Shown here one piece after another: positions 7,741 to 64,000 of a stretch of DNA of 64,000 nt; the first letter of the stretch is position 1; each line of letters begins with the position of its first letter. The stretch comes from an uncultured SAR116 cluster alpha proteobacterium (lineage in GTDB: Bacteria > Pseudomonadota > Alphaproteobacteria > Puniceispirillales > Puniceispirillaceae): the NCBI GenBank assembly GCA_902625725.1, contig CACOCY010000002.1:1-64000 (forward strand). The letters are read 5' to 3'. The notes under the pieces are model-generated. The model did no database searches, was not told where the DNA came from, and saw only the letters and a list, made by a program, of their open reading frames with translations. The position numbers were made by a program, and so were the translations under genes.

Positions 7741-7753
7741 TTTTTTGTTTTAC

Positions 7754-9345: not shown

Positions 9346-9402
9346 TTAGTTACTCCTTTTCTAAAAAATTTTAAAACTACGATTTTTTATTCACATTTCA
9401 AT

Positions 9403-9927: not shown

Positions 9928-9991
9928 TTAGTGTGATCCTTGTTTATTCATAACTTATCAAAAATGAAATGCTAGTATATGAAGAGAATGT

Positions 9992-10456: not shown

Positions 10457-10578
10457 AGTTAATCCTTTTTAAGGGTTGTTTATTTAAAAGAAATAGATAA
10501 TCGTTAATAATTGTTATGGTCATCCGCGTAGAATGCAAGATCAAAAAAAAGTATATTAGTTAAAATAGGATCAAGAAA

Positions 10579-11424
10579 ATGAAAGCTCCTGATTTCAGTT
10601 ATGAAAAGCCAACCACCATTTCAGATGTGTTAGCTTTGCTAGCAAATAACGAATTAGAGTGTCAGTTGCTGGCAGGTGGCCAGAGCCTCATGCCTATGAT
10701 GAATTTTAGGATGGCAAGTCCCGGCACACTGGTTGATATCTCAAATGTTTCAGAACTCTCTGGCATAAATGAGCGTGACGAGACTATCGAGATCGGGGCT
10801 ATGGTACGATACCGCGAATTGGAGTTGAGTGAAATTATAAAAGCTCATTGCCCACTTGTTGCAATGGTGCTGCCATATGTTGCTCACGCGGCTATCAGAA
10901 ATCGTGGAACAATTGGCGGCTCTATAGGTCTTTCAGACCCTGCAGCAGAACTTCCAGCAGTACTTTTAGTATTAGATGGCAAGATTGAAATAACTTCGGA
11001 AAAGGGAATTAGGTTAGAACCAGCGCGGACTTTTTTTAAGGGAATTTACGAAACTTCATGCGAACCTGATGAACTAATTACTAAAATAATTCTGCCTAAA
11101 AAGCACCTAAAGCAAAAATTTGGTTTTCATGAAATCGCCAGGAGGCATGGTGATTACGCCATGGCGGGTGTTTGTATTGCACAAGATATTGATTTAAAAG
11201 TAAGGGTCGCTTTTTTTGGAGTCGCTGATAGAGCTGTCAGGTCAATTGCCGTTGAAAAGTTACTTTCTGGCAATTCTGATCTCTCAGAACAATTAATCAA
11301 AGATGCCCAAAATGCATTGAATGACATAGAATTTGAAGGTGACATGAATGCAGGTCCTGAGGCAAAACAACATATTGCTAAGGTTGTTTTGGAGCGTGCA
11401 TTAAAGGAGATGAAAAATGAATAA
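10579..11424 (+). CDS. Molybdenum hydroxylase, FAD-binding subunit
   Basis: A 281-residue medium subunit of the xanthine dehydrogenase/CO dehydrogenase family (CoxM/CutM type). The two FAD loops are intact: AGGQSLMPMM near residue 33 and TIGGSIGLSDPAAE near residue 113. It passes electrons from the iron-sulfur subunit to FAD and the final acceptor. It is the first gene of a tight operon and overlaps the next gene by eight bases. Together the three genes make a complete (LMS)2-type hydroxylase. Confidence 0.95.
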   Translation: MKAPDFSYEKPTTISDVLALLANNELECQLLAGGQSLMPMMNFRMASPGTLVDISNVSELSGINERDETIEIGAMVRYRELELSEIIKAHCPLVAMVLPYVAHAAIRNRGTIGGSIGLSDPAAELPAVLLVLDGKIEITSEKGIRLEPARTFFKGIYETSCEPDELITKIILPKKHLKQKFGFHEIARRHGDYAMAGVCIAQDIDLKVRVAFFGVADRAVRSIAVEKLLSGNSDLSEQLIKDAQNALNDIEFEGDMNAGPEAKQHIAKVVLERALKEMKNE

Positions 11425-11896
11425 AACAGCGCAGATTGAGTTGATTGTAAATGGAGAAAAATATTTTGAAAATGTGCCTGTTCGCATGAATTTAGCGGAT
11501 TTTCTTAGAAATAAATTAGGGCTTACCGGGACACATGTTGGCTGTGAGCATGGTGTTTGTGGCGCCTGCACGATATTTCTTGATGGTGTTACCGCACGAA
11601 GTTGTCTTACACTTGCGGTACAAGCCGATGAAACGGAAATAACAACTATTGAGGGGTATGAAACGGACAAAAATGCTTCTGACTTAATTAAAAATTTTCA
11701 CAAACGAAATGCATTACAATGCGGATATTGTACGCCCGGAATGCTTGCTTCTTCAATTGAATACATTGAGCAAGGAAATCCTCCTGACCGTAAAAAAGTC
11801 AAAGAGCATATATCTGGAAACTACTGCAGATGCACAGGTTACCAAGCTATTGTAGATGCTATCTGCACAACAATACAAGAGAGGCAAAGCAGATGA
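11417..11896 (+). CDS. Molybdenum hydroxylase, [2Fe-2S] subunit
   Basis: A 159-residue small subunit (CoxS/CutS type) carrying two [2Fe-2S] clusters. The plant-ferredoxin-type cluster motif is GCEHGVCGACTIFLDG near residue 43. The second, proximal to the molybdenum centre, is CGYCTPGM near residue 102 plus CRCTGY near residue 137. All eight cysteines are visible. It sits between the FAD and molybdopterin subunit genes and overlaps both. Confidence 0.95.
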   Translation: MNKTAQIELIVNGEKYFENVPVRMNLADFLRNKLGLTGTHVGCEHGVCGACTIFLDGVTARSCLTLAVQADETEITTIEGYETDKNASDLIKNFHKRNALQCGYCTPGMLASSIEYIEQGNPPDRKKVKEHISGNYCRCTGYQAIVDAICTTIQERQSR

Positions 11897-14271: not shown

Positions 14272-14300
14272 TGTTATAAATTATTGTTAAATCACAAACT

Positions 14301-14324
14301 CCATATTTTTGTCTAAAAATATGG
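14301..14324. terminator. Hairpin between convergent genes
   Basis: A perfect 10-bp inverted repeat, CCATATTTTT and AAAAATATGG, with a GTCT loop. It lies between the large-subunit gene and the convergent LysR gene. The arms themselves supply A/T tracts in both directions, so it may end transcripts from both sides. No separate T run follows, so strength is uncertain. Confidence 0.5.
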
Positions 14325-14338
14325 GTAAAAATATGGTG

Positions 14339-15268
14339 TCAATTCATATACCGGTTTGGTTGAACCTCTTGCCAAGCTATTGATGTTATTTCTTCTTTTA
14401 ATAATTTGAGGAAAAACGTCGCCTGTGGTGATAATGATCTTCCTATTGGTTCAATAATTACGAAGTCAGAGTAAATATTTGGTTCACATATAGGGTTAAT
14501 ATACCGCAGATTAGACTGAGTATCAGGCACGCATATCAAATACGGAAGAATAGTAACCCAGTCTGTCGAACCCACCAGTTCGAGAGTTCCTATCATTGAA
14601 TCCATCTCCATAATGTTTGCTATCTCAATAGAGTGAGCTGTGAAGTAATCTTCCAATTTAATACGACGAATATTTGCTTTTGTAGGCAAAACTATTTTTA
14701 ATGGTTCCATTATTTTCAGTGAAATTTCTTCGCCTTGCTTCAAACCAAAAGTTGGAGATGAAACTAACACCTCTCTGTCCCTTACTAAATTTGAATATTT
14801 TATTCCTTGTGTTCCAGTCATGACGGGAACTAGAGCAAAATCGAGCTCACCAGCTTTAACCATATCTGTAAGACTTCCGCTGTAAGACTCAACAACGCTT
14901 ATTTCTATATTAGGATGAGTTGTTGAAATTAACTTTAATACAGGCGCTAAAGCAGCTCGCGTGAAGGTTGGCATTAAACCAGCGTTTACTTTACCAGATA
15001 GTCCTTTTCCGGCGTTAACAGCCTCTTGCTCAGCAGTTTTTAGTGTGCGAATAGCCTCAACGGATTTTTTGTAAAAACCATGGCAAATAGTAGTTGGGAT
15101 GACACCATTAGAGTTTCGTGTAAAAAGAAGAATCCCAAGTTCTTTTTCTATCGCACTTATGTGTTGTGAAATTCCTGATTGAGTTGCGTTCTCTCTTTCT
15201 GATGCTGCAGTAAATGAACCTTCTTCATACACTGCAATTAAAGAATTAAGCTGACGAAGTGATGCCAT
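14339..15268 (-). CDS. LysR-family transcriptional regulator
   Basis: A 309-residue LysR-type regulator. Residues 1-60 form the winged helix-turn-helix (LRQLNSLIAVYEEGSFTAAS, then ISQHISAIEKELGILLF), and the rest is the periplasmic-binding-protein-like effector domain. It is transcribed away from the flavin monooxygenase gene and converges on the molybdenum hydroxylase operon, so it probably controls one or both in response to the pathway substrate. A 7-5-7 inverted repeat in the divergent gap is a candidate binding site. Confidence 0.93.
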   Translation of the reverse strand: MASLRQLNSLIAVYEEGSFTAASERENATQSGISQHISAIEKELGILLFTRNSNGVIPTTICHGFYKKSVEAIRTLKTAEQEAVNAGKGLSGKVNAGLMPTFTRAALAPVLKLISTTHPNIEISVVESYSGSLTDMVKAGELDFALVPVMTGTQGIKYSNLVRDREVLVSSPTFGLKQGEEISLKIMEPLKIVLPTKANIRRIKLEDYFTAHSIEIANIMEMDSMIGTLELVGSTDWVTILPYLICVPDTQSNLRYINPICEPNIYSDFVIIEPIGRSLSPQATFFLKLLKEEITSIAWQEVQPNRYMN

Positions 15269-15304
15269 AACACAAATCCTTTTTAAAATTTTAATTAGTA
15301 ATAG

Positions 15305-15323
15305 GTATTATAAAAAATAATAC
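15305..15323. promoter_or_regulatory. Candidate LysR operator
   Basis: A perfect inverted repeat GTATTAT-AAAAA-ATAATAC (19 bp) lies 36 bases before the LysR start and 126 bases before the flavin monooxygenase start. LysR proteins bind short interrupted dyads in just such divergent gaps. The AT-rich content makes a chance dyad possible. Confidence 0.4.
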
Positions 15324-15449
15324 AGTGTGTAAATTATTATAATTTTATTTTAGTATAAAAAAAGAATATATAAATACCGAATTGGTAAATAGCATCAATT
15401 TATAGATAATAAAACTTAACCTGGCTTAGATTTTTGAGGAATATATAAA

Positions 15450-16565
15450 ATGGAAATTGGATTTTTCACTATGCCCATACACCCAGTTAACAAAGATTGG
15501 CGTGTAAGTTTAAAGGAAGATAGAGAAGCGTTTTTACTAGCAGATGAGCTCGGTTTTTCAGAGGCCTATGTGGGCGAGCATGTCACAGATGCAGCAGAAA
15601 ATATCACTTCATGTGCAATGTTTGTTGCTTCGCTTGCCGCGGCAACAAAACAGATCCGGTTAGGTACTGGCACAGTCAACCTTCCTAATTCTCATCCCGC
15701 ACATGTGGCTGGCCAAGTTGCGATGTTAGACCACATGTTAGATGGACGATTTAATTTTGGTATTTCTCCCGGGGGGTTAGCCTCCGATGCGGAGGTGTTT
15801 GGTACTTTGGATAGCAACCGTAACGAGATGTTTTTGGAAGGAATTGATACTGTTTTGAAAATATGGGAATCTGAGGCTCCATACAACATTGAGGGTAAAT
15901 ATTGGAAAGTAACTACTGAAAGAACATCTTTAACAGATATTGGACAAGGGATCATGGCCAAACCATTGCAAAGGCCGCATCCACCTATAGTTGTTACAGC
16001 CGTCGCACCATTTTCTAAAGGTGTAACGGAGGCAGCAGCAAGGGGATGGGAGCCGATTAGTGCTAATTTCCTTATGCCACAATGGGTAAAATCACACTGG
16101 CCCAAATATGTGGAAGGGTGCGAGCGAGTCGGGAGGCCCGCTGATCCAGCTAATTGGCGGGTTGCAAAATCAGTATTCGTTGCAGATGATTTGGCCACTG
16201 CGAAAGAATATGCATTGGGCCCCGATAGCCCTTATGTGTTTTATTACAATCAACTGTTAACCAAAATGCGGAAACACAACCGCGTCGAACTTTTTAAGAC
16301 TTACCGCGAGCAGCCAGACGACGAAGTCACGTTGGAAGACGTTTGCGATAAGCTTATAATTTGGGGAACACCAGATAAAGTTACAGATGAAATTTTAGAG
16401 TTTCAGGATGAAGTAGGTGAATTCGGTACACTTCTTTATGCTGGAAAAGATTGGGCATCTCCCGAATTGGCAAAACGTTCTATGGTTCTTGCTGCAGAGA
16501 AGGTAATGCCTGCCGTAACGTCTGCTAGTTCAGAAATAAGAAATAACAAAACAGCCGCGGAATAA
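15450..16565 (+). CDS. Luciferase-like flavin-dependent monooxygenase
   Basis: A 371-residue LLM-class oxidoreductase with the bacterial luciferase TIM-barrel fold. The N-terminal strand MEIGFFTMPIHP, the segment LADELGFSEAYVGEHV, and LGTGTVNLPNSHPAHVAGQVAMLDHMLDGRF (read in parts) match the family. Such enzymes use reduced FMN and O2 to oxidise aldehydes, heterocycles or other small organics, and need a flavin reductase, which is not seen nearby. The gene stands alone, divergent from LysR, and is followed by a good hairpin terminator. Its composition looks richer in G+C than the neighbouring housekeeping genes, which may point to transfer. Confidence 0.9.
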   Translation: MEIGFFTMPIHPVNKDWRVSLKEDREAFLLADELGFSEAYVGEHVTDAAENITSCAMFVASLAAATKQIRLGTGTVNLPNSHPAHVAGQVAMLDHMLDGRFNFGISPGGLASDAEVFGTLDSNRNEMFLEGIDTVLKIWESEAPYNIEGKYWKVTTERTSLTDIGQGIMAKPLQRPHPPIVVTAVAPFSKGVTEAAARGWEPISANFLMPQWVKSHWPKYVEGCERVGRPADPANWRVAKSVFVADDLATAKEYALGPDSPYVFYYNQLLTKMRKHNRVELFKTYREQPDDEVTLEDVCDKLIIWGTPDKVTDEILEFQDEVGEFGTLLYAGKDWASPELAKRSMVLAAEKVMPAVTSASSEIRNNKTAAE

Positions 16566-53236: not shown

Positions 53237-53842
53237 TTAGTTAAGCTCTATTATTTGATTCGCACTCAAATAGGAACTCACGTCCTGATGAGATATTATA
53301 AGTGTGATTGACTTCATTTTTTGCCTTTGCTCTTCAATTAACATGGATGCTTTTTTTATCATATTCAGATCTAGAGCAGAAAAAGGTTCATCCAATAATA
53401 AGATTGGTTGCTCTCGCAATAAGGTTCTTATTAAAGCAATACGTTGGAGTTCACCGCCGGATAAGTCATGAGATTTCCGATTGATTAGAGAATTTACATC
53501 TAAAAAATTAATTTTATTTTTCATATTTTCAATATGTTCTAATTTATTTCTTATTCCTAACATTAAATTTTCTTTCACAGATAAATGAGGAAATAAATTA
53601 TCACTTTGAAACATTGTAGAAACAGGCCTTTTCCAGGGAGGCTTTACACATAAATTTTCACCATTAAATAAAATTGAACCGGACACTGGTTCATAAAATC
53701 CAGAGATAATATTGAATAATGTTGTTTTACCCACACCAGAGCGTCCGCTTATTAAAATTATTTCACCCTTAGAAGCATTTAAATTTACCTCCTGTGAAAA
53801 TGAATCTGGCCATTGATATATTAATTTATTTAATTGAAGCAT
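53237..53842 (-). CDS. thiQ: Thiamine ABC transporter ATPase
   Basis: A 201-residue ABC ATPase. Walker A is SGRSGVGKTTLF, the signature LSGGELQRIAL, and Walker B ILLLDEPFSALD. It powers thiamine, thiamine phosphate and thiamine diphosphate import with ThiP and ThiB. Start taken at the ATG giving MLQLNKLIYQWPDS, which fits the family; the frame is open 13 codons upstream inside thiP. It overlaps thiP by 17 bases. Assignment rests on the operon and the riboswitch as much as on the sequence. Confidence 0.92.
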   Translation of the reverse strand: MLQLNKLIYQWPDSFSQEVNLNASKGEIILISGRSGVGKTTLFNIISGFYEPVSGSILFNGENLCVKPPWKRPVSTMFQSDNLFPHLSVKENLMLGIRNKLEHIENMKNKINFLDVNSLINRKSHDLSGGELQRIALIRTLLREQPILLLDEPFSALDLNMIKKASMLIEEQRQKMKSITLIISHQDVSSYLSANQIIELN

Positions 53843-55538
53843 CTTTAAATACCGTGTGGCTATAAATCCGCAGTTTTTCAATATACATTAAGATAACACC
53901 AAAAATTAAGTAAGCCCCAAAAATATATCCGAGAATGAATATGCCTAGCATATCCGCTTCAGAAGCACCATAACGGCTGAAAAGTTGATAAAGATAATAA
54001 GGTAATGTTTCAAACTCGTGATTACCAAATAAAGTGATTACACTTAAATCACCTAGTGAAAAGGCAAAACTTAAACCCAATACCAGCTGTAATTCACGAT
54101 TTATTGTAGGCATGGTTAATGAAAAGAATTTCCGTGCCCCAGTTATACCTAATTGTAAGGATAACTTATCATGCTGCGAAAGTTTATGTTCTAATGACGG
54201 CGATAATATACGTACAACAAAAGGTAAAGAAAATAATATATTTGCTAATAAAACTAGCCAGAACGCAAATTCAAAAAGATTAATTGTATTTCGCAGTAGG
54301 AGAAAACATCCGGTAGCAAAAACAATAGCTGGCATTAAAAGATAAAATGATACAGAAAAATCAATAAATTGTATCCAAAGGTGAGTGCCGGACTGTGCTA
54401 GTCTAAACCTACTATGGATTAAAATAATGGAGATACTAACGCTTAATATTGAAGAAAAAAAAGCGAGTTTGGTAGACAAATTAAAAGCTCTCCAAAACCT
54501 TTCTTGTTCGAATAACTTAAGTCCGGAATATAAATCTAACCTAAAAAATAATGCTATTAACGGTAATACAATAAGTAGAAAAAAAATAGTGAGGCAAAAT
54601 AAATCTGTGAGCCTTGATACGATAGTATTTGTATCATTTCTTTCGATTTTATTTTTCTCCGCATTTGCTGAAGGGGAGCTAATATTAAAATTTAGTGGCC
54701 TAGATATAAAAATTAGACCAGAGCATATCAAAATTTGTAATATACTTAAACAAGCTGCCAACTGCATATCAAAAGAAAAACGAACTGCGTGATAAATGGA
54801 AACTTCTAACGTTGTTACATCAGGTCCGCCTCCTAGCATAAGAACTATTGAAAAGGAGGTAAAGCAAAGCAAAAAAATCAAACTTGCTAGAGGAAATATA
54901 ATTTTCTTAAATGTTGGCCATTCTATGAATTTAAATATCTCTATTTCCGACAAATTATTATGGGATGCTATTTTCCAATAGTAGCTTGGCTGGGTTATTA
55001 AAGCAGAATAAGCAACTCTTAAAACAAGGGGTGCATTAAAAAATACATGCGCAAGAACAACCATCCATAACCCAAAAAGAGATACACTACTTAATCCTAA
55101 AGAACTTAAGAGACCAGACCTTCCCCAAACCGCCACAATACCTAAAGATGCAACAGTTGTGGGAATTACTAGTGCCACAAAGCTTGTAGACAAAACGATT
55201 CTATTCAGCCAGTAATTTCCCCTTCTATGAAGGGCGCGTGCACATACTATTCCAGCAAATAAAGAAAAAAAAGTAGAGAGGAATGCCTGCCATCCAGCAC
55301 TTTTAATTATATTAAAAGTAGTAGATGAAAAAATAGTATCTAAATTACTGCCATCACCTGCTATCCTAAACATTTGGGTTAATATCAAACATCCAAGAGT
55401 TGATAGAAATAACCCAAAAAACACACCATAAGCTCTTGCAAATTGAAAATGCCTTAATAGAGAAAGTGACTGGGCGGCATAAAATGTTTTTGCTCTCTTT
55501 TTTCCTATTTCTTCTATTTTGTACTTGCGGCTAACCAC
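53826..55538 (-). CDS. thiP: Thiamine ABC transporter permease
   Basis: A 570-residue inner-membrane protein with about twelve helices in two homologous halves, each with the permease EAA-like loop (ASHNNLSEIEIFKFIEWP and LQLGITGARKFFSLTMP). This duplicated form is the ThiP/FbpB type. The start is GTG, lying 25 bases inside the end of thiB, which suggests translational coupling. ThiB delivers the ligand and ThiQ supplies ATP hydrolysis. Confidence 0.93.
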   Translation of the reverse strand: MVSRKYKIEEIGKKRAKTFYAAQSLSLLRHFQFARAYGVFFGLFLSTLGCLILTQMFRIAGDGSNLDTIFSSTTFNIIKSAGWQAFLSTFFSLFAGIVCARALHRRGNYWLNRIVLSTSFVALVIPTTVASLGIVAVWGRSGLLSSLGLSSVSLFGLWMVVLAHVFFNAPLVLRVAYSALITQPSYYWKIASHNNLSEIEIFKFIEWPTFKKIIFPLASLIFLLCFTSFSIVLMLGGGPDVTTLEVSIYHAVRFSFDMQLAACLSILQILICSGLIFISRPLNFNISSPSANAEKNKIERNDTNTIVSRLTDLFCLTIFFLLIVLPLIALFFRLDLYSGLKLFEQERFWRAFNLSTKLAFFSSILSVSISIILIHSRFRLAQSGTHLWIQFIDFSVSFYLLMPAIVFATGCFLLLRNTINLFEFAFWLVLLANILFSLPFVVRILSPSLEHKLSQHDKLSLQLGITGARKFFSLTMPTINRELQLVLGLSFAFSLGDLSVITLFGNHEFETLPYYLYQLFSRYGASEADMLGIFILGYIFGAYLIFGVILMYIEKLRIYSHTVFKDASIK

Positions 55539-56533
55539 TCATCAATCCATTTTTTCTGGTTTGAAGCTACATCTTTGGATTTGAAAATAAGCGATTTGGT
55601 CGGTTTGGCCAGTGTTTCAAAACCTCCTGGTATTTCGCCAGTAAAGGCCGGATACATCCAGTTCGTTGTAGGTATGGTATTCTGAAATGCGGGGGAAGCA
55701 ATGAATTCCATGAATTTAGCTGCAAGTTCTGGTTCGGAGGAGCTTTTTAACATGGCTCCTACCTCAATTTGTAAATAGTTACCCTCTGCAAAAACAGCGG
55801 CGTCAAAATTATCATTTCCTTCCGCAATTAAGTGATACGCAGGTGAAGTAGTGTAAGATAATACCATGTCCGCTTCCCCGTCCAAGAAAAGAGCATAGGC
55901 CTCTGACCATCCTTTCGTGACGGTTAGGATCTTAGGTTGTAACTCTCTCCAATAGTTTAAAGCCTTATCACCATAAACAGATTTAACCCAAAGCAATAAT
56001 CCCAAACCAGGTGTTGATGTTCTTGGGTCTTGGATGACAATTTTAATATCATCAGACATTTTTGATAATTCTTGAAATGATTTTGGTGGACTTTTTAAAG
56101 AATTTTTATTGTAAACAAAACCAAACCAGCCCCAATCAAACGGCATAAATATATCGTCGTTGTATACAATAGGCAATGAGCTGCGCTCATTATTGATATC
56201 TTTGACTTTAGTTGGTAGTGGTGCAAAAAGCCCTGTCTCTTTTGCAATATGAACAAGATTGGTATCGAGACCAAGTGCAATATCTGCTTTTGTATTTTTT
56301 CCTTCAAGCTGAATTCTGCCCAAAATTCCGATAGAGCTATCTAGTCCAATAAATTGCAAGTCGCATTCACATATCTCCTCAAATTTTAACTCAACAGTTG
56401 GACCTGGACCCCAATCAGATGTAAATGAATCATATGTGTAGACCGTAAGAACTGGTTTGTCCGCTACGGCTGGATGTATACCTAATAAATAAGTGATAAA
56501 AACAATGGCGATTCTTAAAATATTCATATTCAT
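55514..56533 (-). CDS. thiB: Periplasmic thiamine-binding protein
   Basis: A 339-residue binding protein. A signal peptide covers about residues 1-24 and ends at HPAVADKP. The mature start LTVYTYDSFTSDWGPGPTVELKFE matches the ThiB family well, as does DIALGLDTNLV and TSPAYHLIAEGN. It captures thiamine and its phosphates. It is the first gene after the TPP riboswitch. The second methionine (M3) is an alternative start. Confidence 0.95.
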   Translation of the reverse strand: MNMNILRIAIVFITYLLGIHPAVADKPVLTVYTYDSFTSDWGPGPTVELKFEEICECDLQFIGLDSSIGILGRIQLEGKNTKADIALGLDTNLVHIAKETGLFAPLPTKVKDINNERSSLPIVYNDDIFMPFDWGWFGFVYNKNSLKSPPKSFQELSKMSDDIKIVIQDPRTSTPGLGLLLWVKSVYGDKALNYWRELQPKILTVTKGWSEAYALFLDGEADMVLSYTTSPAYHLIAEGNDNFDAAVFAEGNYLQIEVGAMLKSSSEPELAAKFMEFIASPAFQNTIPTTNWMYPAFTGEIPGGFETLAKPTKSLIFKSKDVASNQKKWIDEWLAASTK

Positions 56534-56619
56534 ATTTCCATTCTATTCAATAAACAAAAATTTTGCTTCGCGCGAAGATAAAGAAAATAATAATATTAAT
56601 ATGTATGAACATTTTCGTT

Positions 56620-56702
56620 ATTCTCTTTCCTACGCCAGCATTATCCGGTTCAGGTTCATGGGTATATCTCAGCCCCAAAAGTCTGGGCACCCCAAGAGTT
56701 AA
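56620..56702 (-). ncRNA. TPP riboswitch (THI element)
   Basis: On the minus strand the aptamer is easily read: GGGGTGCC, then GGCTGAGATATACCC, then GAACCTGAACCGGATAATG and CTGGCGTAGGAAAGAG. P1 is closed by CTCTT and AAGAG. The CTGAGA and ACCTGA bulges are the conserved pyrimidine- and pyrophosphate-binding parts. It ends about 90 bases before thiB, so thiamine diphosphate should shut off thiBPQ expression. No terminator hairpin with a T run follows it, so control is more likely at translation. Confidence 0.95.
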
Positions 56703-56754
56703 ATCATTTTAAAATAAGTTAATAAAAAATGGTAAAAAGTAAATATAATTTTAA

Positions 56755-56790: not shown

Positions 56791-57966
56791 CTATCTTTTT
56801 TCCAAATAAATTTTCTCTGTTAATGAAATTAATTGTTCATCTTTGTTTAAACTGCCTAAAATTGAAATTCCAAAAGGTTGAGGAGTATCTATCTTAAGTG
56901 GCAGTGATATTTGTGGCCTACCGGTTAGCCCCGCAATACAAGTGAAATTATGAATTTTTTTTCGAAATATTGATAATTCTTCATTTATTTTGCTTTTATT
57001 CAAAGCTGGCATGGGTGTTGTTGGGAAAATAGCAACACAATCATCTTCTATTAGTGCATCAATGCGGCTCTTGAAATTCTTTCTATTTTTATTTGCGTTT
57101 TCAAATTCAGCTTTAGTTATGCTATCTGCAAAATCAATTCTCTCTTTAATATTTTTTCTTAGTTTTAAGCGATGTTTTTTTACATGTTTTACTAAGCCGA
57201 GTTTTGCCTCCCATCCTTGTATTATTTGGAAATCCATAATTGAACTTTCAAAGTCAATTGCAGAAAAGGTTTTAGCTTCTATATTAAAATGGGCTTCCAA
57301 TATTTTTATCCACTGTTTTGAATCAGCAGAAACTTGTTGCGTGCTGTATTTAAATAAATCCTCTATTATAATGATTTTATTTATTTTATTTTTTTGTGTA
57401 CTATAATTCTTTAATAGTATTTGTCCTACCTTTGATAGTAGTTCTGGTTTTTTTGTTAACCATCCAAGTGTATCTAGTGAAGGCGCTAGTGCTGTCATAC
57501 CATTTGTTGGGATTCTCCCATGTGTTGGTCGAATTCCAAACAAACTACAAAAGGAAGCCGGTACTCTAATCGATCCACCCGTGTCACTTCCAAGGGCAAA
57601 ATCAGCTAAGTCAAAACCCACAGAAGCGGCAGCTCCCGATGATGACCCGCCGGGAACTAACTTTGTATTTATCCAGTTCTCAGGTTGTTGAAATGAGCTT
57701 TCTATGCCAGTCAGACTATAAAAAAATTCATCGCAGTTAGTTAGTCCAACCAGTTTTGCTCCCTCACGCATAAGCGAGGTTATTATAGGACTAGTAGAAC
57801 TAGACGGTTCAAACTTATTTAAGCTTCCCTTGTGGCCATTACTCTTAATATGTCCTTTCAAATCAAATAAGTCTTTTGCTGAAAAGGTGTAGTTATCTAA
57901 AATTCCCAACGTCTTTGGAAATTCGTTAAAATTTGACTTGCATTCAACAAAAATGTTACTCGGCAT
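56791..57966 (-). CDS. Amidase-signature family hydrolase
   Basis: A 391-residue amidase. The Ser-cisSer-Lys triad is complete: lysine in FSAKDLFDLKG near residue 32, cis-serine in PGGSSSGAAASVG near residue 110, and the nucleophile in GSDTGGSIRVPASF near residue 135. It is shorter than typical amidases (about 450-500 residues), with a compact C-terminal part. The family cleaves carboxamides, ureas or indole-acetamide-like compounds. It is the last gene of a cupin-cupin-cyclase-amidase unit transcribed away from the second molybdenum hydroxylase, so an amide intermediate of that pathway is the natural guess. Confidence 0.9.
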   Translation of the reverse strand: MPSNIFVECKSNFNEFPKTLGILDNYTFSAKDLFDLKGHIKSNGHKGSLNKFEPSSSTSPIITSLMREGAKLVGLTNCDEFFYSLTGIESSFQQPENWINTKLVPGGSSSGAAASVGFDLADFALGSDTGGSIRVPASFCSLFGIRPTHGRIPTNGMTALAPSLDTLGWLTKKPELLSKVGQILLKNYSTQKNKINKIIIIEDLFKYSTQQVSADSKQWIKILEAHFNIEAKTFSAIDFESSIMDFQIIQGWEAKLGLVKHVKKHRLKLRKNIKERIDFADSITKAEFENANKNRKNFKSRIDALIEDDCVAIFPTTPMPALNKSKINEELSIFRKKIHNFTCIAGLTGRPQISLPLKIDTPQPFGISILGSLNKDEQLISLTEKIYLEKR

Positions 57967-58001
57967 GGAAATTTTTATAATAAATTTTTGTAGTATTTTT
58001 T

Positions 58002-58841
58002 TTAATTTCTTGCGTTCGCAAAATCCCCAATGAAATCCAAGGGTCCATCGTAGTCCTCAAATAATAAAATCCTGCATGGACAAGCTTCTAGTCCTTCATA
58101 TCTCCAAGGAAAGGCACCAATTAACCCCCTTTTATTTGAGGCTAATTCAATGTCGCCGCCTATATTTTCTGCGTGAGTTAAACCCCTATCAAATGCATAA
58201 GTATGAAAAGGAAAAATATCGTCAGTTATTTCTCTCCCTGATTTAGCGTGTTTATAAGAAAAATCTCCAAAAAATTTTTCGCAGGACATACCAATTTGCT
58301 TTTCAAATTTTTTTGCTAAATCAGGTCGCATGTTTCTAATGGAGGTATTCATGGAATGATCACCAGAACCACAATCGATACCAAACCATTTAATTTTCTT
58401 ATCAAGCATCCATTCTAATAATTCAATCTTACCTCCTGGATGCATACAAAAATATCTGACTAAATCTTGATTTTCTTGCCCTTCCCAATATTTATGAAAA
58501 CCAGTGTTTAAAATAAGAATGTCACCTTCTTTAACTTCAACTGGTGAGTCTTCTATCATTTGTGGAGTGATAACAGACCAGTCGTCACAATATTTTGATA
58601 TGTCCACTACTGCTCCGGGTCCCATCAAAAAATCTAAAGAGTAAGAAGCCATGTCTCCCATACCATCAGTACCGTGCATTGCCCCATCTATATGTGTTCC
58701 AGAATGTAGGGCAATATCAATCCGTTGAGTTACAATTGTTTTTGTTTGAAGGTTGGCAGCATAAAACATTTTATTACCGGCGTAACCAACCCAACCTGGG
58801 GTATGTATATTCATTTTATGTGTCAAATCATATATTTTCAT
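58002..58841 (-). CDS. Cyclase-family metal-dependent hydrolase
   Basis: A 279-residue member of the cyclase/kynurenine formamidase-like family. The metal motif is canonical, HSGTHIDGAMHGTDGMGD near residue 47, followed by GPGAVVDIS and GDILILNTGFHKYW. Such enzymes hydrolyse formamides, lactams or cyclic imides, often through a Zn or Mn centre. It differs from the longer cyclase at 8.4-9.3 kb, which has a degenerate form of this motif, so they are different subtypes. It lies 13 bases after a cupin gene and 35 bases before the amidase gene. Confidence 0.92.
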   Translation of the reverse strand: MKIYDLTHKMNIHTPGWVGYAGNKMFYAANLQTKTIVTQRIDIALHSGTHIDGAMHGTDGMGDMASYSLDFLMGPGAVVDISKYCDDWSVITPQMIEDSPVEVKEGDILILNTGFHKYWEGQENQDLVRYFCMHPGGKIELLEWMLDKKIKWFGIDCGSGDHSMNTSIRNMRPDLAKKFEKQIGMSCEKFFGDFSYKHAKSGREITDDIFPFHTYAFDRGLTHAENIGGDIELASNKRGLIGAFPWRYEGLEACPCRILLFEDYDGPLDFIGDFANARN

Positions 58842-58854
58842 TTACTTCTCCTAA

Positions 58855-59247
58855 TTAAAATTCATACTTTTTAGGCAACTTACCAACATTCTTTAAAAGA
58901 TGTTTGTCTGCCGGTGATGGTCCTCCAACACTTACGATTTTTTTTCCACCATCTGCTCGTACCGCATGTTTAATTCCAATAGGAACGTGTATAAGGTCGT
59001 TTTTATCGAATTGATGTACTTCGCCTGTGTCATAATTTTTAATGCTTCCTCTCCCCTCTATTATAAAAATAGTATCTTCAGAATCTTTGTGTATATGGGG
59101 GATGTTTTCCTCGCCCGGTTCTAAAACGACATAATTCATATTTGCATGCTCGGAGTCCTCTCCAAGCCAAACAATAAAACGAGCGTCACTAGAGATTATA
59201 GGTAATCTAAGACTTGGATTATTTATATCAAAAATTTTGATTGTCAT
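58855..59247 (-). CDS. Cupin-domain protein
   Basis: A 130-residue single-domain cupin. The metal motif reads PHIHKDSEDTIFIIEGRG near residue 50, with the second motif DKNDLIHVPIGIKHAV. It may be an isomerase, a dioxygenase-like enzyme or a sensor. It lies two bases after the next cupin-like gene and immediately before the cyclase gene, so it belongs to the same unit. Confidence 0.88.
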   Translation of the reverse strand: MTIKIFDINNPSLRLPIISSDARFIVWLGEDSEHANMNYVVLEPGEENIPHIHKDSEDTIFIIEGRGSIKNYDTGEVHQFDKNDLIHVPIGIKHAVRADGGKKIVSVGGPSPADKHLLKNVGKLPKKYEF

Positions 59248-59249
59248 AA

Positions 59250-59618
59250 TTATTCACCTATATTCATTATATTTTTATCAAAAGGACAGGGACCTCCGAG
59301 TAAGGTTAGTTCATCTCCAAAGGTAATAAAACAAAACATGGTATTGGGAGTTATAAATACCATTTTATCTTCTGAAATGTTTTCTTTTTGATTTTCTGTT
59401 TCATCAAAAATAACGCCTTTGCCCTTCATAACAAAAAAGACACATTCAGAACTTAAATTTACCGAGTTTGTTTGTTGATTTTTTGATAAATGAATTTTTA
59501 ACGATGTTCTCCATTTAGCACCATCATCTGGAGTAAGGATAGGTGTAAGCGATATTTCTTTATTTTTAAAAACTATAGGTTCAATATTTGTAGAATTTAT
59601 AATTTGTATACTTTCCAT
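59250..59618 (-). CDS. Cupin-like small protein
   Basis: A 122-residue protein with cupin-like beta-strand spacing (SSECVFFVMKGKGVIFDE, then EDKMVFITPNTMFCFITFGDE), but the histidines that bind metal are missing. Start at the ATG near 59618; it heads the minus-strand unit. No specific function can be assigned. It could be a non-catalytic partner of the adjacent cupin, because the two genes are only two bases apart. Confidence 0.7.
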   Translation of the reverse strand: MESIQIINSTNIEPIVFKNKEISLTPILTPDDGAKWRTSLKIHLSKNQQTNSVNLSSECVFFVMKGKGVIFDETENQKENISEDKMVFITPNTMFCFITFGDELTLLGGPCPFDKNIMNIGE

Positions 59619-59702
59619 ACAGTTTTACCAATCTATTATTTAAAAATACTTATCAGACAAGCAATCTGTGCATAAACTATAACAGCATATTTACGCTATT
59701 TT

Positions 59703-59715
59703 GTATATTGTATAC
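59703..59715. promoter_or_regulatory. Palindromic candidate operator
   Basis: GTATA-TTG-TATAC is a perfect inverted repeat in the 159-base gap between the divergent cupin and molybdenum hydroxylase units. GntR-family repressors commonly bind GTATAC-type palindromes, so a shared repressor is plausible. No regulator gene lies in the visible part of the island. Confidence 0.35.
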
Positions 59716-59777
59716 TGAAACATATTACATTAATATGATCAAACAAATTAAATGAGTGTTATGAACTGGAAAAAGTT

Positions 59778-60629
59778 TTGAAAGCAAGTAATTTTCTTTA
59801 TTTGAAACCTAAAAGTTTAGACGAAGCTTTATCTTTTCTATCATCAAATGAGGAACCAAGGATAATGGCTGGAGGGCAAAGTCTTGTCGCAGCAATGAAT
59901 ATGAAGTTGGCACAGCCAGAAACCATTATTGATATCGGAGAAATTGAAGAACTTAAAATTTTAGAATCTAACTCTAATGAAGTTCAGATTGGAGCTTTAA
60001 TTACGCATGGTGATATTGAGTTTTGCAAAAATTCGTCGAAGTTGCTTCTTTTTTTAAGCACTGTTTCAAAGAATATAGCCCATACACCTATAAGATTTAA
60101 AGGTACTTTTTGTGGGGCCGTTGCTAATTCTGATCCAGCTTCAGAATGGTGTTCTTGTTTACTAGCTCTTGATGGAGTCGTTGAGGTAATCGGGCAAGAT
60201 AGAAAAAAAAGAATTGTTGATAGCAAGGAATTTTTTATTGCTCCCTATTTAACAAATGTTGGTTATGACGAAATATTATTATCTATAAAATTTCCTGAAA
60301 TTAATGAAAATACAAAGTTAGGCTTTAATGAGTATGCGAGACGAGCTGGAGATTATGCAATTGCAATGTGTGTATCAAAATTAAATATGGTTGATGAGAA
60401 AGTTAAAGATGGAAATATAGTCATAGGTGCAGCTGCCGAAACACCAGTAATTATTGAAGAAGCAATAAATTTTTTACAAGGTAAGGCAATTAACCAAAAA
60501 ACATCTTGGGAAGCAGCTATTATCGCATCCGAAAATATCAAAATCTTACCTGACATTGATTCTTCCGAAGAATACAAACGAGATATTGTTAAAGCCGTAA
60601 CTTACCGTTCCTTGCTAGCGTGCTCATAA
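59778..60629 (+). CDS. Molybdenum hydroxylase, FAD-binding subunit (second locus)
   Basis: A 283-residue FAD subunit homologous to the one at 10.6 kb. The first FAD loop AGGQSLVAAMN is normal. The second, usually TIGGS/N, reads TFCGAVANSDPA near residue 114, so the first glycine of the pair is cysteine. Start is TTG: it aligns with the methionine of the paralogue (MKASNF versus MKAPDF) and has GGAAAA upstream. It is the first gene of an operon, with one base before the large-subunit gene. Confidence 0.93.
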   Translation: MKASNFLYLKPKSLDEALSFLSSNEEPRIMAGGQSLVAAMNMKLAQPETIIDIGEIEELKILESNSNEVQIGALITHGDIEFCKNSSKLLLFLSTVSKNIAHTPIRFKGTFCGAVANSDPASEWCSCLLALDGVVEVIGQDRKKRIVDSKEFFIAPYLTNVGYDEILLSIKFPEINENTKLGFNEYARRAGDYAIAMCVSKLNMVDEKVKDGNIVIGAAAETPVIIEEAINFLQGKAINQKTSWEAAIIASENIKILPDIDSSEEYKRDIVKAVTYRSLLACS

Positions 60630-60630
60630 A

Positions 60631-62943
60631 ATGGTTGCCATCGGAATATCGCAAAAACGAAAAGAAGACCCTTCTTTATTAACCGGAAGGGCAAAGTTTG
60701 TTGCGGATATGTGCAGTGATTCAACAGAAGTACAATTCATAAGAAGCCCTATAGCAAAAGGAAAAATAAAAAAAATAAACAGGAATCAGCATACAGAGTT
60801 GATTACTGGTCAAGCATTAGAAGAGATAAATGATATATCTTGCAAGTTAGATAAGTTTAATTTTATTCCCATTGCTCAGCCAATTCTTCCATCTGAAGAC
60901 ATAAAATATGTAGGTCAAGCCATCGGCGCTATTTACAACCACGATCCAAGGAGAGAATTGAAACAGGATTTTTCGTTCTTTGAATTTGAAGTTGAAAAAG
61001 GTGTTTACGAAATCAATGATGCGTTAAAAGCTAACGCCCCCATAGTTCACGAGCATATAAAAGATAATATTGTTGTTCACGGAAAATTTGAGACTGATGA
61101 CTTTGAAAGCAAATTTGGCGAGGGTGATTGTAAAATTGAAATCCAATTCAATTCAAAAAGACAAAATGCTTCGCCTCTTGAAACAAGAGGTTGTGCTGTA
61201 AAATTTAATGTGTCCACGGAAAGAATAGAATTATATGTCTCTGCTCAGATGCCACATATGTTGAGAACAGGAATTTGTGATTGTTTAAATATAGCTGAGA
61301 GCAAATTAAGAGTTATCGCTCTAAATGTTGGTGGAGCGTTTGGTCAGAAGATGGCATTATTTCCAGAATATGTTTTTCTCTGTTGGCTCGCATTGCGCAA
61401 AAAAAGAAATTTTCATTGGATTGAAGACCGTCAAGAAAATTTTTCTTCATCGGCACATAGCAGAGACCAAATTCATGAAGTTAATGCGTCCTTTGATAGA
61501 AAAGGAAAATTGCTCGCTTTAAAAACACATATCAAAGCTAACGTAGGCGCTTATTCAAATTATCCAGTAACAGCCGGCGTAGAACCGTTGATGGCACTCG
61601 CGGAATATACTGGGCCTTATGACGTCTCAGCCTATTCATCTGAAGCAATTGGCGTGCTCACAAACACGTGTATGATGGCGCCTTACAGAGGGGTTTCAAG
61701 ACCAGTTATAACAGCTGTTCTGGAAAGGCTTATGGATAAAGCATCTAAAATATTAGGTATTGATAAAATTGAAATACGAAATAGAAATTTGATAAAAAAA
61801 TTTCCCTATAAAACACCCACGAATTTAATTATTGACGAGGGTTCTTATTCGGAAACGCTTTCATTTGCAAAAGATATTATCCTTCGGGAAAACAAATATT
61901 TAGAGTTTGATAATAAAAAAAACAATTATGAATTAACTGGTATTGGTCTCTCCGTTTTTGGTGAAAGAACTGGATACGGAACAAGCGCTTTTGCAGCTAG
62001 AGGAATGCAAATAACACCAGGTTTTGAGAATTGTGATCTAAGCATGGACCCCTCTGGTAATATTACTGCTAGAGTTGGTATTTGTTCAAACGGACAGGGA
62101 ATAGCTACCACATTATCTCAGATAATAGCCGACAATTTGGGACTTACCGTTGAAAATATAAATATTGTGCAGGGTGATACAGACAATACACCCTATGGAT
62201 GGGGAACATTTGCAAGTAGATCTGTAGTTATATCGGGTGGCGCTTGTCAAATATCAGCTCAAAAACTTGCTAAAAAGATTAAAGAGATAGCTTCTTTCTA
62301 CTTACAATGTGACATAGATGAGTTGGAGTTGGAGGGTGGATATGCCATAAACAAGAAAACAAATTCGAATCTCTCTTTAAAAACAATTGGGCGAAAAGTT
62401 TATCATTCTAATCATGAAGTTAAGGATATAGCTGGAAGCGAACTTCGTGTTTCTAGCGCTTACGATCCTGTTGGCACATTTTCGAATGCATGCCACATTG
62501 CAAAAATTAGAATAGATACTCTCACAGGTAATGTATTAGTCGAAAAATATTTTGTAATAGAAGATGCTGGAAAATTAATTAATCCAAAAATAGTTGATGG
62601 GCAGATAGTTGGTGGAGTAATTCAAGGCATAGGCAATGCTTTATTTGAAGAAATAAAATATGATAAAAATGGAACTATATTAACAACTAATTTTGCAGAT
62701 TTCAAAATTCCTACCATGCATGAAACACCAAAAATAGAGATCAAACATTTAGAAACAATAACAGAATATTCTGAGACTGGAGCTAAAGGGTTAGGTGAGG
62801 GAGGACTTATTGGTGCTCCGGGCGCCATATTGAGTGCAATAAATAATGCGCTGGAGCAGTATGGAGAAGAGATTAATTTTTTTCCTGTACATCCAAATGA
62901 CATTAGAGAGGTGTTGAGGAAACATGAGCAAAGAAAATATTGA
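60631..62943 (+). CDS. Molybdenum hydroxylase, molybdopterin large subunit (second locus, first copy)
   Basis: A 770-residue catalytic subunit of the xanthine dehydrogenase/CoxL family. It starts ISQKRKEDPSLLTGRAKFVAD and keeps the active-site glutamate in GAKGLGEGG near residue 718. The form-II-like position reads APYRGVSRP; the CO dehydrogenase AYxCSFR motif is absent. It has GGAFGQKM near residue 235, a cofactor-contact segment. It overlaps the small-subunit gene by 20 bases. Unlike the first locus, gene order is FAD, large, small, and a second large subunit follows. Confidence 0.93.
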   Translation: MVAIGISQKRKEDPSLLTGRAKFVADMCSDSTEVQFIRSPIAKGKIKKINRNQHTELITGQALEEINDISCKLDKFNFIPIAQPILPSEDIKYVGQAIGAIYNHDPRRELKQDFSFFEFEVEKGVYEINDALKANAPIVHEHIKDNIVVHGKFETDDFESKFGEGDCKIEIQFNSKRQNASPLETRGCAVKFNVSTERIELYVSAQMPHMLRTGICDCLNIAESKLRVIALNVGGAFGQKMALFPEYVFLCWLALRKKRNFHWIEDRQENFSSSAHSRDQIHEVNASFDRKGKLLALKTHIKANVGAYSNYPVTAGVEPLMALAEYTGPYDVSAYSSEAIGVLTNTCMMAPYRGVSRPVITAVLERLMDKASKILGIDKIEIRNRNLIKKFPYKTPTNLIIDEGSYSETLSFAKDIILRENKYLEFDNKKNNYELTGIGLSVFGERTGYGTSAFAARGMQITPGFENCDLSMDPSGNITARVGICSNGQGIATTLSQIIADNLGLTVENINIVQGDTDNTPYGWGTFASRSVVISGGACQISAQKLAKKIKEIASFYLQCDIDELELEGGYAINKKTNSNLSLKTIGRKVYHSNHEVKDIAGSELRVSSAYDPVGTFSNACHIAKIRIDTLTGNVLVEKYFVIEDAGKLINPKIVDGQIVGGVIQGIGNALFEEIKYDKNGTILTTNFADFKIPTMHETPKIEIKHLETITEYSETGAKGLGEGGLIGAPGAILSAINNALEQYGEEINFFPVHPNDIREVLRKHEQRKY

Positions 62944-63418
62944 GCAAAATATAGAATTTTTTGTTAATGAGCAGAAATTCAACATTTCTGTGAGACCAAG
63001 TACTCATCTTGCTGATGCAATTAGAGACAAATGTTCGCTTACCGGAACTCATCTTGGATGTGAACATGGAGTTTGTGGGGCCTGTACCATATTGGTTGAT
63101 AATTTGCCGGTGAGGGGTTGTCTTTACTTAGCTGTTCAGGCAGATGGTAAAAAGATAGAGACTGTAGAGGGTCTATCTTATAATGACGAACTTAATGATA
63201 TTCAGAATTCTTTTTGGGAAAATCATGGTCTTCAATGTGGGTTTTGTACTCCAGGGTTTTTAATCTTAACTAAATGGATGCTTGAAAATTTTAAAGAACT
63301 ATCTGAGGATATAGTCAAAGATGTTCTGTCCTCGAATATATGCAGATGTACCGGATATCAAAATATAATTAAATCAGTAAAACAAGTGGCAATAGAGCAA
63401 AATAAATGGGTGGAATAG
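62924..63418 (+). CDS. Molybdenum hydroxylase, [2Fe-2S] subunit (second locus)
   Basis: A 164-residue small subunit. Cluster motifs are GCEHGVCGACTILVDN near residue 46, CGFCTPGF near residue 105, and CRCTGYQN near residue 139; all cysteines are present. Its start lies 20 bases inside the first large-subunit gene and its end overlaps the second one by 13 bases. A single small subunit might therefore serve two large subunits. Confidence 0.95.
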   Translation: MSKENIEQNIEFFVNEQKFNISVRPSTHLADAIRDKCSLTGTHLGCEHGVCGACTILVDNLPVRGCLYLAVQADGKKIETVEGLSYNDELNDIQNSFWENHGLQCGFCTPGFLILTKWMLENFKELSEDIVKDVLSSNICRCTGYQNIIKSVKQVAIEQNKWVE

Positions 63419-64000
63419 GTACATCGACCAAGCGTTTAGAGGATCCACCATTATTACTTGGCAAGGGCATATTTGTAGCTGATATAAATCACGATAATCA
63501 AATTTACATGCGGGTAGTTCGCTCAGATGTTTCTCATGGTAAAATAAATTTTATAAACACAGAATTGGCAAAGAATCTAGAAGGGGTTTTGGATGTGTGG
63601 AGCGCCGCCGATTTTGAGGAAATACCCAAAATAAAATTTAGAATGATGGGGCGTAACGATTTAGAAAACTATCTACAACCTATCCTTGCAGATGGCACAG
63701 TTAGGTATGTTGGTGAACCAATTGCTGTTATTTTTGCAACAGAAAACCATATAGCTGATCATGCAGCTGAGCTGCTAGAAATTAATATTGAGATAATGCA
63801 ACCGCAAATTTCAGCTACTGAAAATCCCTTAATATTCTCTAAGCATCTCAATAATGAGGCCTGTTTGGTTACAAAAAAATATGGGGATGTGGATAAAGTT
63901 ATAAAAACTAGCGACAATTTCTTAGAATTAGAATTTTATGTTGGAAGACATAGCGGAGTACCGCTAGAAACAAGAGGACTATCAACATTTTTTGACGAGG
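63406..64000 (+). CDS. Molybdenum hydroxylase, second large subunit (partial)
   Basis: An open frame from the ATG at 63406 to the window end, about 198 codons. It begins MGGIGTSTKRLEDPPLLLGK and continues with FVADINHDNQIYMRVVRSDV, the standard hammerhead start of xanthine dehydrogenase-family large subunits; DGTVRYVGEPIAVIFA and HSGVPLETRG are also typical. It is a different sequence from the 60631 gene, not a tandem copy. The molybdenum site lies beyond the window, so intactness cannot be judged. The overlap with the small-subunit gene supports co-translation. Confidence 0.88.
   Translation, partial: MGGIGTSTKRLEDPPLLLGKGIFVADINHDNQIYMRVVRSDVSHGKINFINTELAKNLEGVLDVWSAADFEEIPKIKFRMMGRNDLENYLQPILADGTVRYVGEPIAVIFATENHIADHAAELLEINIEIMQPQISATENPLIFSKHLNNEACLVTKKYGDVDKVIKTSDNFLELEFYVGRHSGVPLETRGLSTFFDE

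Follow-up and report, generated by a model that had tools for sequence, protein, structure and literature searches.

An island of genes in an uncultured SAR116 cluster alpha proteobacterium (Puniceispirillaceae) may encode the catabolism of a small N-heteroaromatic compound, most likely one with a pyridine-type ring. We consider the chances of this reading to be about even, and we infer the reactions, their order, and the substrate. The DNA analyzed comprises positions 1-64,000 of the forward strand of contig CACOCY010000002.1 (assembly GCA_902625725.1), and this 64,000-nt stretch is referred to as the window. An eight-gene set is located at its 3′ edge (56791-64000), where the last gene, CutL2, crosses the window end. 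An earlier note had described a cupin-cupin-cyclase-amidase unit opposite a molybdenum hydroxylase, and this arrangement is upheld by the list of open reading frames, by Pfam matches, and by intact active-site motifs. The features are as follows:

56791-57966, minus strand: amidase of the amidase-signature family, 391 amino acids (open reading frame; Pfam Amidase, 2.6e-50; GGSSSG)
58002-58841, minus strand: PF04199 cyclase-family metal-dependent hydrolase, 279 amino acids (Pfam Cyclase, 3.1e-27; HSGTHID motif)
58855-59247, minus strand: cupin B, 130 amino acids (Pfam Cupin_2, 1.4e-11; HxHx3-4E metal motif)
59250-59618, minus strand: cupin A, 122 amino acids, lacking the metal motif (no Pfam match; likeness via relatives)
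59701-59728, no strand assigned: conserved block in the divergent gap with TTGTATAC at 59708-59715 (candidate operator)
59778-60629, plus strand: CutM, FAD subunit, TTG start (FAD_binding_5/CO_deh_flav_C)
60631-62943, plus strand: CutL1, molybdenum large subunit, active-site loop PYRGVS (MoCoBD_1/2)
62924-63418, plus strand: CutS, 2Fe-2S subunit (Fer2/Fer2_2)
63406-64000 in the window, continuing to 65679 on the contig, plus strand: CutL2, second molybdenum large subunit, 757 amino acids, loop TYRSPG

In the members inspected, the cyclase retains HxGTHxD, the amidase retains GGSSSG, and both molybdenum subunits retain the glutamate of GxGExG. The eight genes form a real unit, as originally suggested, but they are only the edge of a much larger island on the contig. 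Downstream are genes for a branched-chain-type ABC transporter (liv), a Rieske oxygenase, a RidA protein, an old-yellow-enzyme (OYE) homolog, and a GntR regulator. The Rieske protein carries the Rieske and iron-site motifs, and its best solved matches are the methylxanthine N-demethylases NdmA (9e-34) and NdmB (3e-32). This sequence likeness suggests that the protein may be an N-demethylase of the NdmA type. In a departure from the NdmA/NdmB system, a VanB-type reductase for the Rieske protein was not found in the genome, the assembly of which is 90.5% complete. The island also holds genes for a BMP-type nucleoside-like transporter, for RidA proteins, and for an isochorismatase whose relatives include biuret hydrolase, RutB, and N-carbamoylsarcosine hydrolase. 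Of these, the genes for the BMP transporter, the isochorismatase, and RidA3 are optional: neither of the other two SAR116 genomes has them in the island stretch, and none were seen near Rhodobacteraceae cyclase loci. A second molybdenum hydroxylase cluster of the window (6550-16565) was rejected as part of the same unit since its genome distribution differs: among 61 family genomes, its cyclase is present in 8, versus 3 for the island cyclase.

Conservation as a unit had been set beforehand as the test that the idea could fail, and the gene set is indeed linked in unrelated genomes. The core also occurs in Pseudogemmobacter, Roseisalinus, and another alphaproteobacterium, as well as in one MAG each of Afifellaceae, Rhizobium, and Acidimicrobiia, and it is therefore a conserved, rare, and patchily distributed unit. 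Linkage was counted at 11 loci that carry the island's cyclase clade. Cupin B is present at nine of these loci, orthologs of both CutL1 and CutL2 at eight, the Rieske gene at eight, and the liv transporter at six, while an amidase or CN_hydrolase is found at 10/11, with one case (G060 C21) being weak. The Acidimicrobiia genome carries CutL1, CutL2, liv, and OYE homologs on further contigs. No relatives (0) were found among viral contigs. In the SAR116 genome itself, the XRE-cupin regulator of relatives has no match, and their CN_hydrolase has only two weak ones (28% and 24%). We propose that the island is mobile or lineage-sorted.

Joint control of the two arms had been suggested on the basis of a palindrome in their shared gap, which spans 159 bp between cupin A and CutM. 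The palindrome does not carry this claim, since the score of the best one was reached by 112 of 300 dinucleotide shuffles and thus is no better than chance. Rather, a 28-column block of the gap has 27 columns conserved across three SAR116 genomes (0/5000 column shuffles), and each of the island's three divergent gaps contains the operator-like TTGTATAC, as do the matching gaps of two relatives. Besides the block at 59701-59728, candidate sites lie at 67818 and 80270. Joint control is supported because the same operator-like element precedes several transcription units. We propose that the TTGTATAC block is the operator of the island's GntR-family regulator, a pairing of regulator and site that is predicted.

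Pfam matches for the MoCo, 2x2Fe-2S, and FAD subunits, together with the active-site glutamate, place the molybdenum hydroxylase in the XDH/Kdh/Qor superfamily. The glutamate equivalent to KdhL Glu748 is present in all aligned rows. The substrates initially listed were purines, pyrimidines, hydantoins, nicotinate, and indoles, and the two large subunits narrow this range toward pyridine-type rings. The best solved match of CutL2 is KdhL (5e-154), and the two proteins form a clade with support of 99/97 in a 29-row tree, which places CutL2 in the KdhL lineage. For CutL1, the best solved match is quinoline 2-oxidoreductase (9e-119). These two affinities indicate pyridine-type chemistry. Among proteins of the nicotine plasmid pAO1, CutL1 matches NdhL best (415 bits vs 298 for KdhL), but the 29-row tree does not resolve CutL1 as the sister of NdhL, which counts against the pyridine-type reading. 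The substrate residues of KdhL are Glu345 and Trp551, according to the available text of PMC8305194. In 7/7 aligned CutL2 proteins, Glu345, which binds the amine tail, is replaced by Gly or Ala, and Trp551 is replaced by Phe or Tyr. Because both residues are replaced, the substrate of CutL2 is predicted to differ from the nicotine intermediate.

The cyclase scores 96 bits against a PF04199 cut-off of 23.1, and HxGTHxD is present in 12 of the 12 cyclase rows shown. The nearest folds to its AlphaFold model are 3krv, 8hmo, 1r61, and kynurenine formamidase 4co9, although these matches simply agree with the family because confidence in the model is low (mean pLDDT 60.5). We propose from its family that the protein is a ring-opening hydrolase. 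It matches PKC, the pAO1 cyclase, at 25% over 137 amino acids (E 2e-4) and belongs to a different subfamily; since the two are only distantly related, the island enzyme may open another ring. Cupin A is assigned through its relatives, which align with the N-terminal half of a fused Rhodococcus plasmid protein, where Cupin_3 is found. This 260-amino-acid protein joins the cupin A and cupin B types, and the island cupins are a split bicupin of which cupin B is the metal-bearing half. The idea that the bicupin is a ureidoglycine aminohydrolase was rejected, as no such family was matched in profile searches. The amidase belongs to the amidase-signature family (172 bits vs 27; GGSSSG), with the lysine of the Ser-cisSer-Lys triad read by eye from the unaligned sequence ('SAKDLFD'). 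Its orthologs occur in two SAR116 genomes at 65-76%, and elsewhere a CN_hydrolase takes its place. We propose that the amidase releases ammonia from a ring-opened monoamide.

The order of reactions suggested earlier, ring hydroxylation followed by hydrolytic opening and amide cleavage, fits these enzyme families. In the proposed route, the substrate would be taken up through the liv-type ABC transporter, and the Rieske oxygenase would remove an N-methyl group or hydroxylate the ring. CutL1 and CutL2, working with the common CutM and CutS subunits, would then hydroxylate in turn both carbons flanking the ring nitrogen to give a cyclic imide, the tautomer of 2,6-dihydroxypyridine. The OYE homolog may reduce one double bond of the ring, and unstable intermediates might be dealt with by a RidA protein and the split bicupin. 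The cyclase would open the imide hydrolytically, and the amidase (CN_hydrolase in other genomes) would free ammonia from the monoamide to leave a dicarboxylate for central metabolism. The island-encoded GntR-family regulator would govern the island via the TTGTATAC sites.

Our choice of N-methyl-pyridine betaines as substrates is a guess. Homarine, trigonelline, and similar pyridine-type compounds occur in marine plankton metabolomes, as reported in the portion of PMC8269262 available. Which bacteria degrade such compounds, and how, bears on the flow of nitrogen and carbon in the ocean. It is conceivable, but unlikely as a whole, that SAR116 and scattered relatives use these betaines or a related marine N-heterocycle as a source of carbon and nitrogen by a hitherto undescribed route that combines N-demethylation by the Rieske enzyme, hydroxylation of the two ring positions beside the nitrogen by a single molybdenum enzyme whose large subunits are interchangeable, reduction of the ring, hydrolytic imide opening by a cyclase from a new branch of its family, amide cleavage, and one GntR-type switch. 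No published description of this gene set was found in literature searches, which covered few subscription papers, and searches on homarine and trigonelline breakdown genes, isonicotinate, Rhodococcus ruber MSA14, and GntR operators yielded nothing useful. If the route is true, then its marker genes are those for the cyclase, both CutL1 and CutL2, and the split bicupin, and the PF04199 family would be tied more firmly to the hydrolytic opening of hydroxylated N-rings. Together with the operator prediction and a handful of test compounds, these markers would make the proposal directly testable in relatives such as Roseisalinus antarcticus and Pseudogemmobacter humi.

A purine or pyrimidine route is a possible, although rather doubtful, alternative. 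Here the Rieske enzyme would N-demethylate a methylxanthine-like base, the molybdenum hydroxylase would oxygenate a purine or pyrimidine, the cyclase would open a barbiturate- or hydantoin-like ring, the amidase and isochorismatase would remove ureido groups, and RidA would act as in the Rut pathway. The NdmA/NdmB matches of the Rieske protein are consistent with such a scheme, since NdmA acts on methylxanthines, and among NCBIfam models the replacement CN_hydrolase scores best with N-carbamoylputrescine amidase. The BMP-type transporter, isochorismatase, and RidA also recall pyrimidine (Rut) or biuret chemistry, but BMP, isochorismatase, and RidA3 belong to the optional genes noted above. Moreover, xanthine dehydrogenase is a more distant relative of CutL1 and CutL2 than quinoline and pyridine hydroxylases are, and urate or allantoin genes were not recognized within the stretches read.

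It is slightly less probable still that two or more unrelated pathways adjoin by chance, with the cupins, cyclase, and amidase serving one compound and the molybdenum hydroxylase, Rieske enzyme, and transporters another. The parts are kept together across several lineages despite varied gene orders and orientations, and one operator-like element stands before several transcription units. Conversely, an enzyme of a different family can stand in for the amidase; on the Rhodococcus plasmid, the cyclase, bicupin, and CN_hydrolase occur with no match to a molybdenum hydroxylase; and locus G060 C28 has the cyclase and molybdenum hydroxylase without cupins or an amide hydrolase. An ordinary CO- or aldehyde-oxidizing enzyme beside housekeeping amidase and cyclase genes is highly improbable. 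The top NCBIfam matches are models for glyceraldehyde dehydrogenase and group 5 CO dehydrogenase, but all fall far under the curated cut-offs, and CO or aldehyde oxidation was rejected for this reason. Likewise, the CO dehydrogenase loop AYRCSF (available text of PMC8305194) is absent from both large subunits, and the gene linkage is conserved.

The pyridine-type reading has precedents among known systems. The enzyme combination remains unmatched to any named pathway, as the earlier note stated, but its logic resembles that of known nicotine breakdown. Plasmid pAO1 of Paenarthrobacter nicotinovorans (ndh, kdh, pkc, nit) has the same kinds of parts in one region: two pyridine-hydroxylating molybdenum enzymes, including the KdhL with which CutL2 groups, a cupin, a PF04199 cyclase, an SRPBCC protein, and a CN_hydrolase omega-amidase. 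The accessible part of PMC6214936 assigns the pAO1 cyclase to pfam04199 and hypothesizes N1-C6 hydrolysis of 2,3,6-trihydroxypyridine followed by the action of the omega-amidase NIT. Unlike pAO1, the SAR116 island encodes in a single operon two large subunits with a common FAD subunit and a common 2Fe-2S subunit, and it adds the liv transporter, Rieske enzyme, RidA, OYE, and split bicupin. Membership in the classical nicotine pathway, which brings together ndh, kdh, dhpH, a PKC-type cyclase, NIT, and a DHPON hydrolase, was rejected because the CutL2 residues differ from KdhL Glu345 and Trp551, the cyclase is of another subfamily, and no homolog of DhpH (an FAD monooxygenase) or DHPON hydrolase was recognized among the island open reading frames read. 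A separate cluster at a distance of ∼50 kb encodes a DhpH-like protein.

In the hpo pathway, trihydroxypyridine is reached by a dioxygenase route. As described in the part of PMC6214936 available, 2-hydroxypyridine degradation by hpo in Rhodococcus rhodochrous PY11 proceeds via trihydroxypyridine, on which HpoH acts, and HpoI is a 2-ketoglutaramate amidase. By this description, these two last steps are the same as those proposed for the SAR116 island. The hxn nicotinate pathway of Aspergillus nidulans includes a molybdenum hydroxylase, an OYE, a cyclic imide hydrolase, and an amide hydrolase (PMC9304392, available portion), all of which are also proposed for the island. However, this pathway is eukaryotic, it has the monooxygenases HxnX and HxnV where the island has a Rieske enzyme, and its imidase HxnM is related to peptidoglycan-deacetylase-like imidases and not to PF04199, according to the same portion of that source. 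A riboflavin pathway likewise combines a molybdenum enzyme with a Rieske enzyme, but within a different gene set, as far as the available text of PMC12746152 describes it.

The ORFs of the divergent cupin-cyclase-amidase and molybdenum hydroxylase unit named in the earlier note are all present and intact, as judged by ORF reading, Pfam matches, and inspection of active-site motifs. The 122-aa ORF has no Pfam match and is assigned as cupin A because it is homologous to the fused Rhodococcus bicupin. In the bicupin of the island, one half carries the metal motif HxHx3-4E and the other half lacks it. CutL2, a second full-length molybdenum subunit, starts at 63406 and ends beyond the window at 65679. 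The unit is larger than had been reported, and the gene set runs on past the window end in the 228,703-bp contig (genome size 2.0 Mb):

65685-66404, minus strand, livF
66473-67726, minus strand, livK, substrate-binding
67877-70444, plus strand, livH, livM, and livG
70441-71472, plus strand, Rieske oxygenase (Pfam Rieske and VanA_C)
71520-72878, minus strand, triple-RidA protein (RidA3)
72903-74012, minus strand, BMP binding protein
74009-74773, minus strand, isochorismatase
74794-76077, minus strand, second RidA protein (RidA2)
76169-77056, minus strand, DMT transporter
3′ end at 77075, minus strand, old-yellow-enzyme (OYE) homologue
78286-80203, minus strand, BMP permeases
80340-81845, plus strand, BMP ATPase
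81848-82486, minus strand, GntR/FCD regulator

Two other SAR116 genomes share the order GntR, OYE, DMT, RidA2, Rieske, livGMH, livK, livF, CutL2, CutS, CutL1, CutM, cupin A, cupin B, cyclase, amidase. Both lack the BMP, isochorismatase, and RidA3 genes in the corresponding stretch, and this module is therefore an optional part of the island. The module adjoins the cyclase in an Acidimicrobiia MAG (isochorismatase 79%, BMP 59%, RidA3 54% identity) and, diverged and without RidA3, lies beside it in an Afifellaceae MAG. The isochorismatase identity between SAR116 and the Acidimicrobiia MAG (records L010, 9-773, and L008, 16163-16960) exceeds that of the other genes common to both loci, which hints at either recent transfer or tight constraint.

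Loci were gathered by the cyclase alone and their neighbors were examined afterwards. The sample comprises 11 loci of the cyclase clade (62%-100% identity), three of them from SAR116; genome G444 occupies two columns of the linkage table, with the cyclase on its L008 contig only, and some genomes, going by the lengths of their contigs and the positions on them, carry several handles (L009 = G025 = G445; L004 = G418 = G446; L003 = G421). The proposal that the gene set is a real, conserved unit is borne out by this linkage: cupin B accompanies the cyclase at 9 of the 11 loci, CutL1 and CutL2 orthologues at 8, the Rieske gene at 8, an amide hydrolase at 10, and the liv transporter at 6. The amide hydrolase is the amidase in the SAR116 genomes, a Rhizobium MAG (31%), and, weakly, locus C21 of genome G060, and is a CN_hydrolase at the remaining five. 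Cupin A at two Rhodobacteraceae loci was missed by tblastn and found by blastp at 25%-26%. In genome G060, locus C28 has the cyclase and four Cut genes but nothing else of the set, and C21 has the cyclase, the weak amidase, and other Cut genes. Among more distant plasmid relatives (29%-38% identity), molybdenum hydroxylase genes are adjacent in one of the three records inspected (L012, L013, and L014, from 31 matched) and not in the other two.

The nearest named relatives of the genome are SAR116 cluster genomes, whose cyclases are 97% and 95% identical to the one here. The clade is rare, occurring in 3/385 Alphaproteobacteria genomes and 3/61 genomes of the source family, all three from the window's genus (threshold 1e-60), and in 1/394 genomes of the Roseisalinus family (threshold 1e-100).

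By phmmer, the nearest solved structure to CutL1 is quinoline 2-oxidoreductase (8.9e-119) and that to CutL2 is 6-hydroxypseudooxynicotine dehydrogenase (5.3e-154; next, 2.2e-96). Against nicotine plasmid pAO1 (L046), CutL1 scores 415 bits with NdhL and 298 with the other large subunit, whereas CutL2 scores 479 bits with KdhL and 353 with the other. A maximum-likelihood tree of 29 rows unites CutL2 with KdhL (support 99/97) and places CutL1 in a separate clade without a settled position relative to NdhL. PMC8305194 gives the active-site loop of KdhL as AYRAPG and that of quinoline 2-oxidoreductase as AYRGVG; the loops found here are TYR[S/A]PG in CutL2 and PYRGVS in CutL1, but PYRGVA in two Rhodobacteraceae CutL1 proteins. 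The catalytic glutamate is retained, and Glu345, the residue that holds the nicotine intermediate by its amine tail, is not. Together, these sequence features suggest that the enzyme is likely to perform pyridine-type chemistry and that nicotine itself is an unlikely substrate.

As described in PMC6214936, the pAO1 PF04199 cyclase shows nicotine-dependent expression and is hypothesized to hydrolyze the N1-C6 bond of 2,3,6-trihydroxypyridine to give alpha-ketoglutaramate, which the omega-amidase NIT converts to alpha-ketoglutarate. A cupin and an SRPBCC protein are likewise encoded in the region of the pAO1 cyclase and NIT. A Pseudogemmobacter CN_hydrolase matches NIT (29%, 3e-20), and a CoxG-like protein of the same organism matches the SRPBCC protein (27%, 2e-16). 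For fungal nicotinate breakdown, PMC9304392 provides a precedent for an OYE acting ahead of imide opening. Given these parallels, the island holds parts for dihydroxylation, reduction, opening, and deamidation. The ring would be hydroxylated at both flanks of its nitrogen, and reduction, opening, and deamidation by island enzymes would follow. We propose this function with moderate confidence; the system is not new in kind, but it follows a known scheme in a new combination.

This route is weakest at the Rieske step. The best solved-structure matches of the Rieske protein are N-demethylases, pointing to a substrate with an N-methyl group, but the protein may just as well hydroxylate the ring and so stand in for a flavin monooxygenase. 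A search of the island's own genome found no VanB-type reductase.

Other organisms carry variants. A Rhodococcus ruber plasmid (L011) has the cyclase, the fused bicupin, a CN_hydrolase, two Rieske/VanB-reductase pairs, and formate dehydrogenase genes, with no CutL1 match; could this be a Rieske-only form of the route? An additional variant, with no cyclase among its listed genes, is a Pantoea sp. At-9b plasmid (L052) with a split bicupin (cupin A, cupin B), FAD monooxygenase, two isochorismatases, CN_hydrolase, two Rieske proteins, and a VanB-type reductase. In Roseisalinus (L041, 1268-6775), an OYE homologue, F420-dependent glucose-6-phosphate dehydrogenase, and bifunctional CofGH (F420 synthesis) adjoin the molybdenum hydroxylase genes; F420-related genes were unexpected in a Rhodobacteraceae genome.

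The palindrome that the earlier note had placed in the divergent gap, with joint control in mind, is no better than those in shuffled sequences. The sequence TTGTATAC occurs six times in contig bases 1-94000, a count in which a perfect palindrome in thiB scores twice and one further occurrence lies inside cupin A. Three of the six fall one per divergent gap of the island (cupin A/CutM, 59708; livK/livH, 67818; BMP permease/ATPase, 80270). The binomial probability of this placement, 2e-6, is optimistic because the motif was chosen after the first gap had been inspected; only 1 of 840 letter permutations of TTGTATAC is found in all three gaps. The exact sequence is absent from the gap ahead of the island's own GntR gene. 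In genome G421, all three sites within 20 kb are in gaps (before RidA2, livH/livK, and CutM/cupin A), as are three of four in G446 (before GntR, livH/livK, and CutM/cupin A), the fourth being within livM. We infer that the GntR protein binds the predicted sites.

The thiBPQ-like thiamine transporter genes (window 53237-56704) adjoin the island yet are separate from it, and a TPP riboswitch precedes them (56610-56704, minus strand). The perfect TTGTATACAA palindrome in the thiB coding sequence (56160-56169) equals the proposed operator core, probably by chance.

A second molybdenum hydroxylase/cyclase cluster, at window 6550-16565, encodes an FAD monooxygenase (30% to pAO1 DhpH; 37% to an FAD monooxygenase on a Pantoea plasmid), GST, a 318-aa PF04199 cyclase, an OsmC-like protein, CutM, CutS, CutL, LysR, and a luciferase-like protein. 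The cyclase of this cluster, present in 8/61 family genomes, is 31% identical over 301 aa to that of pAO1, and the nicotine-breakdown cyclase is nearer to it than to the island's cyclase.
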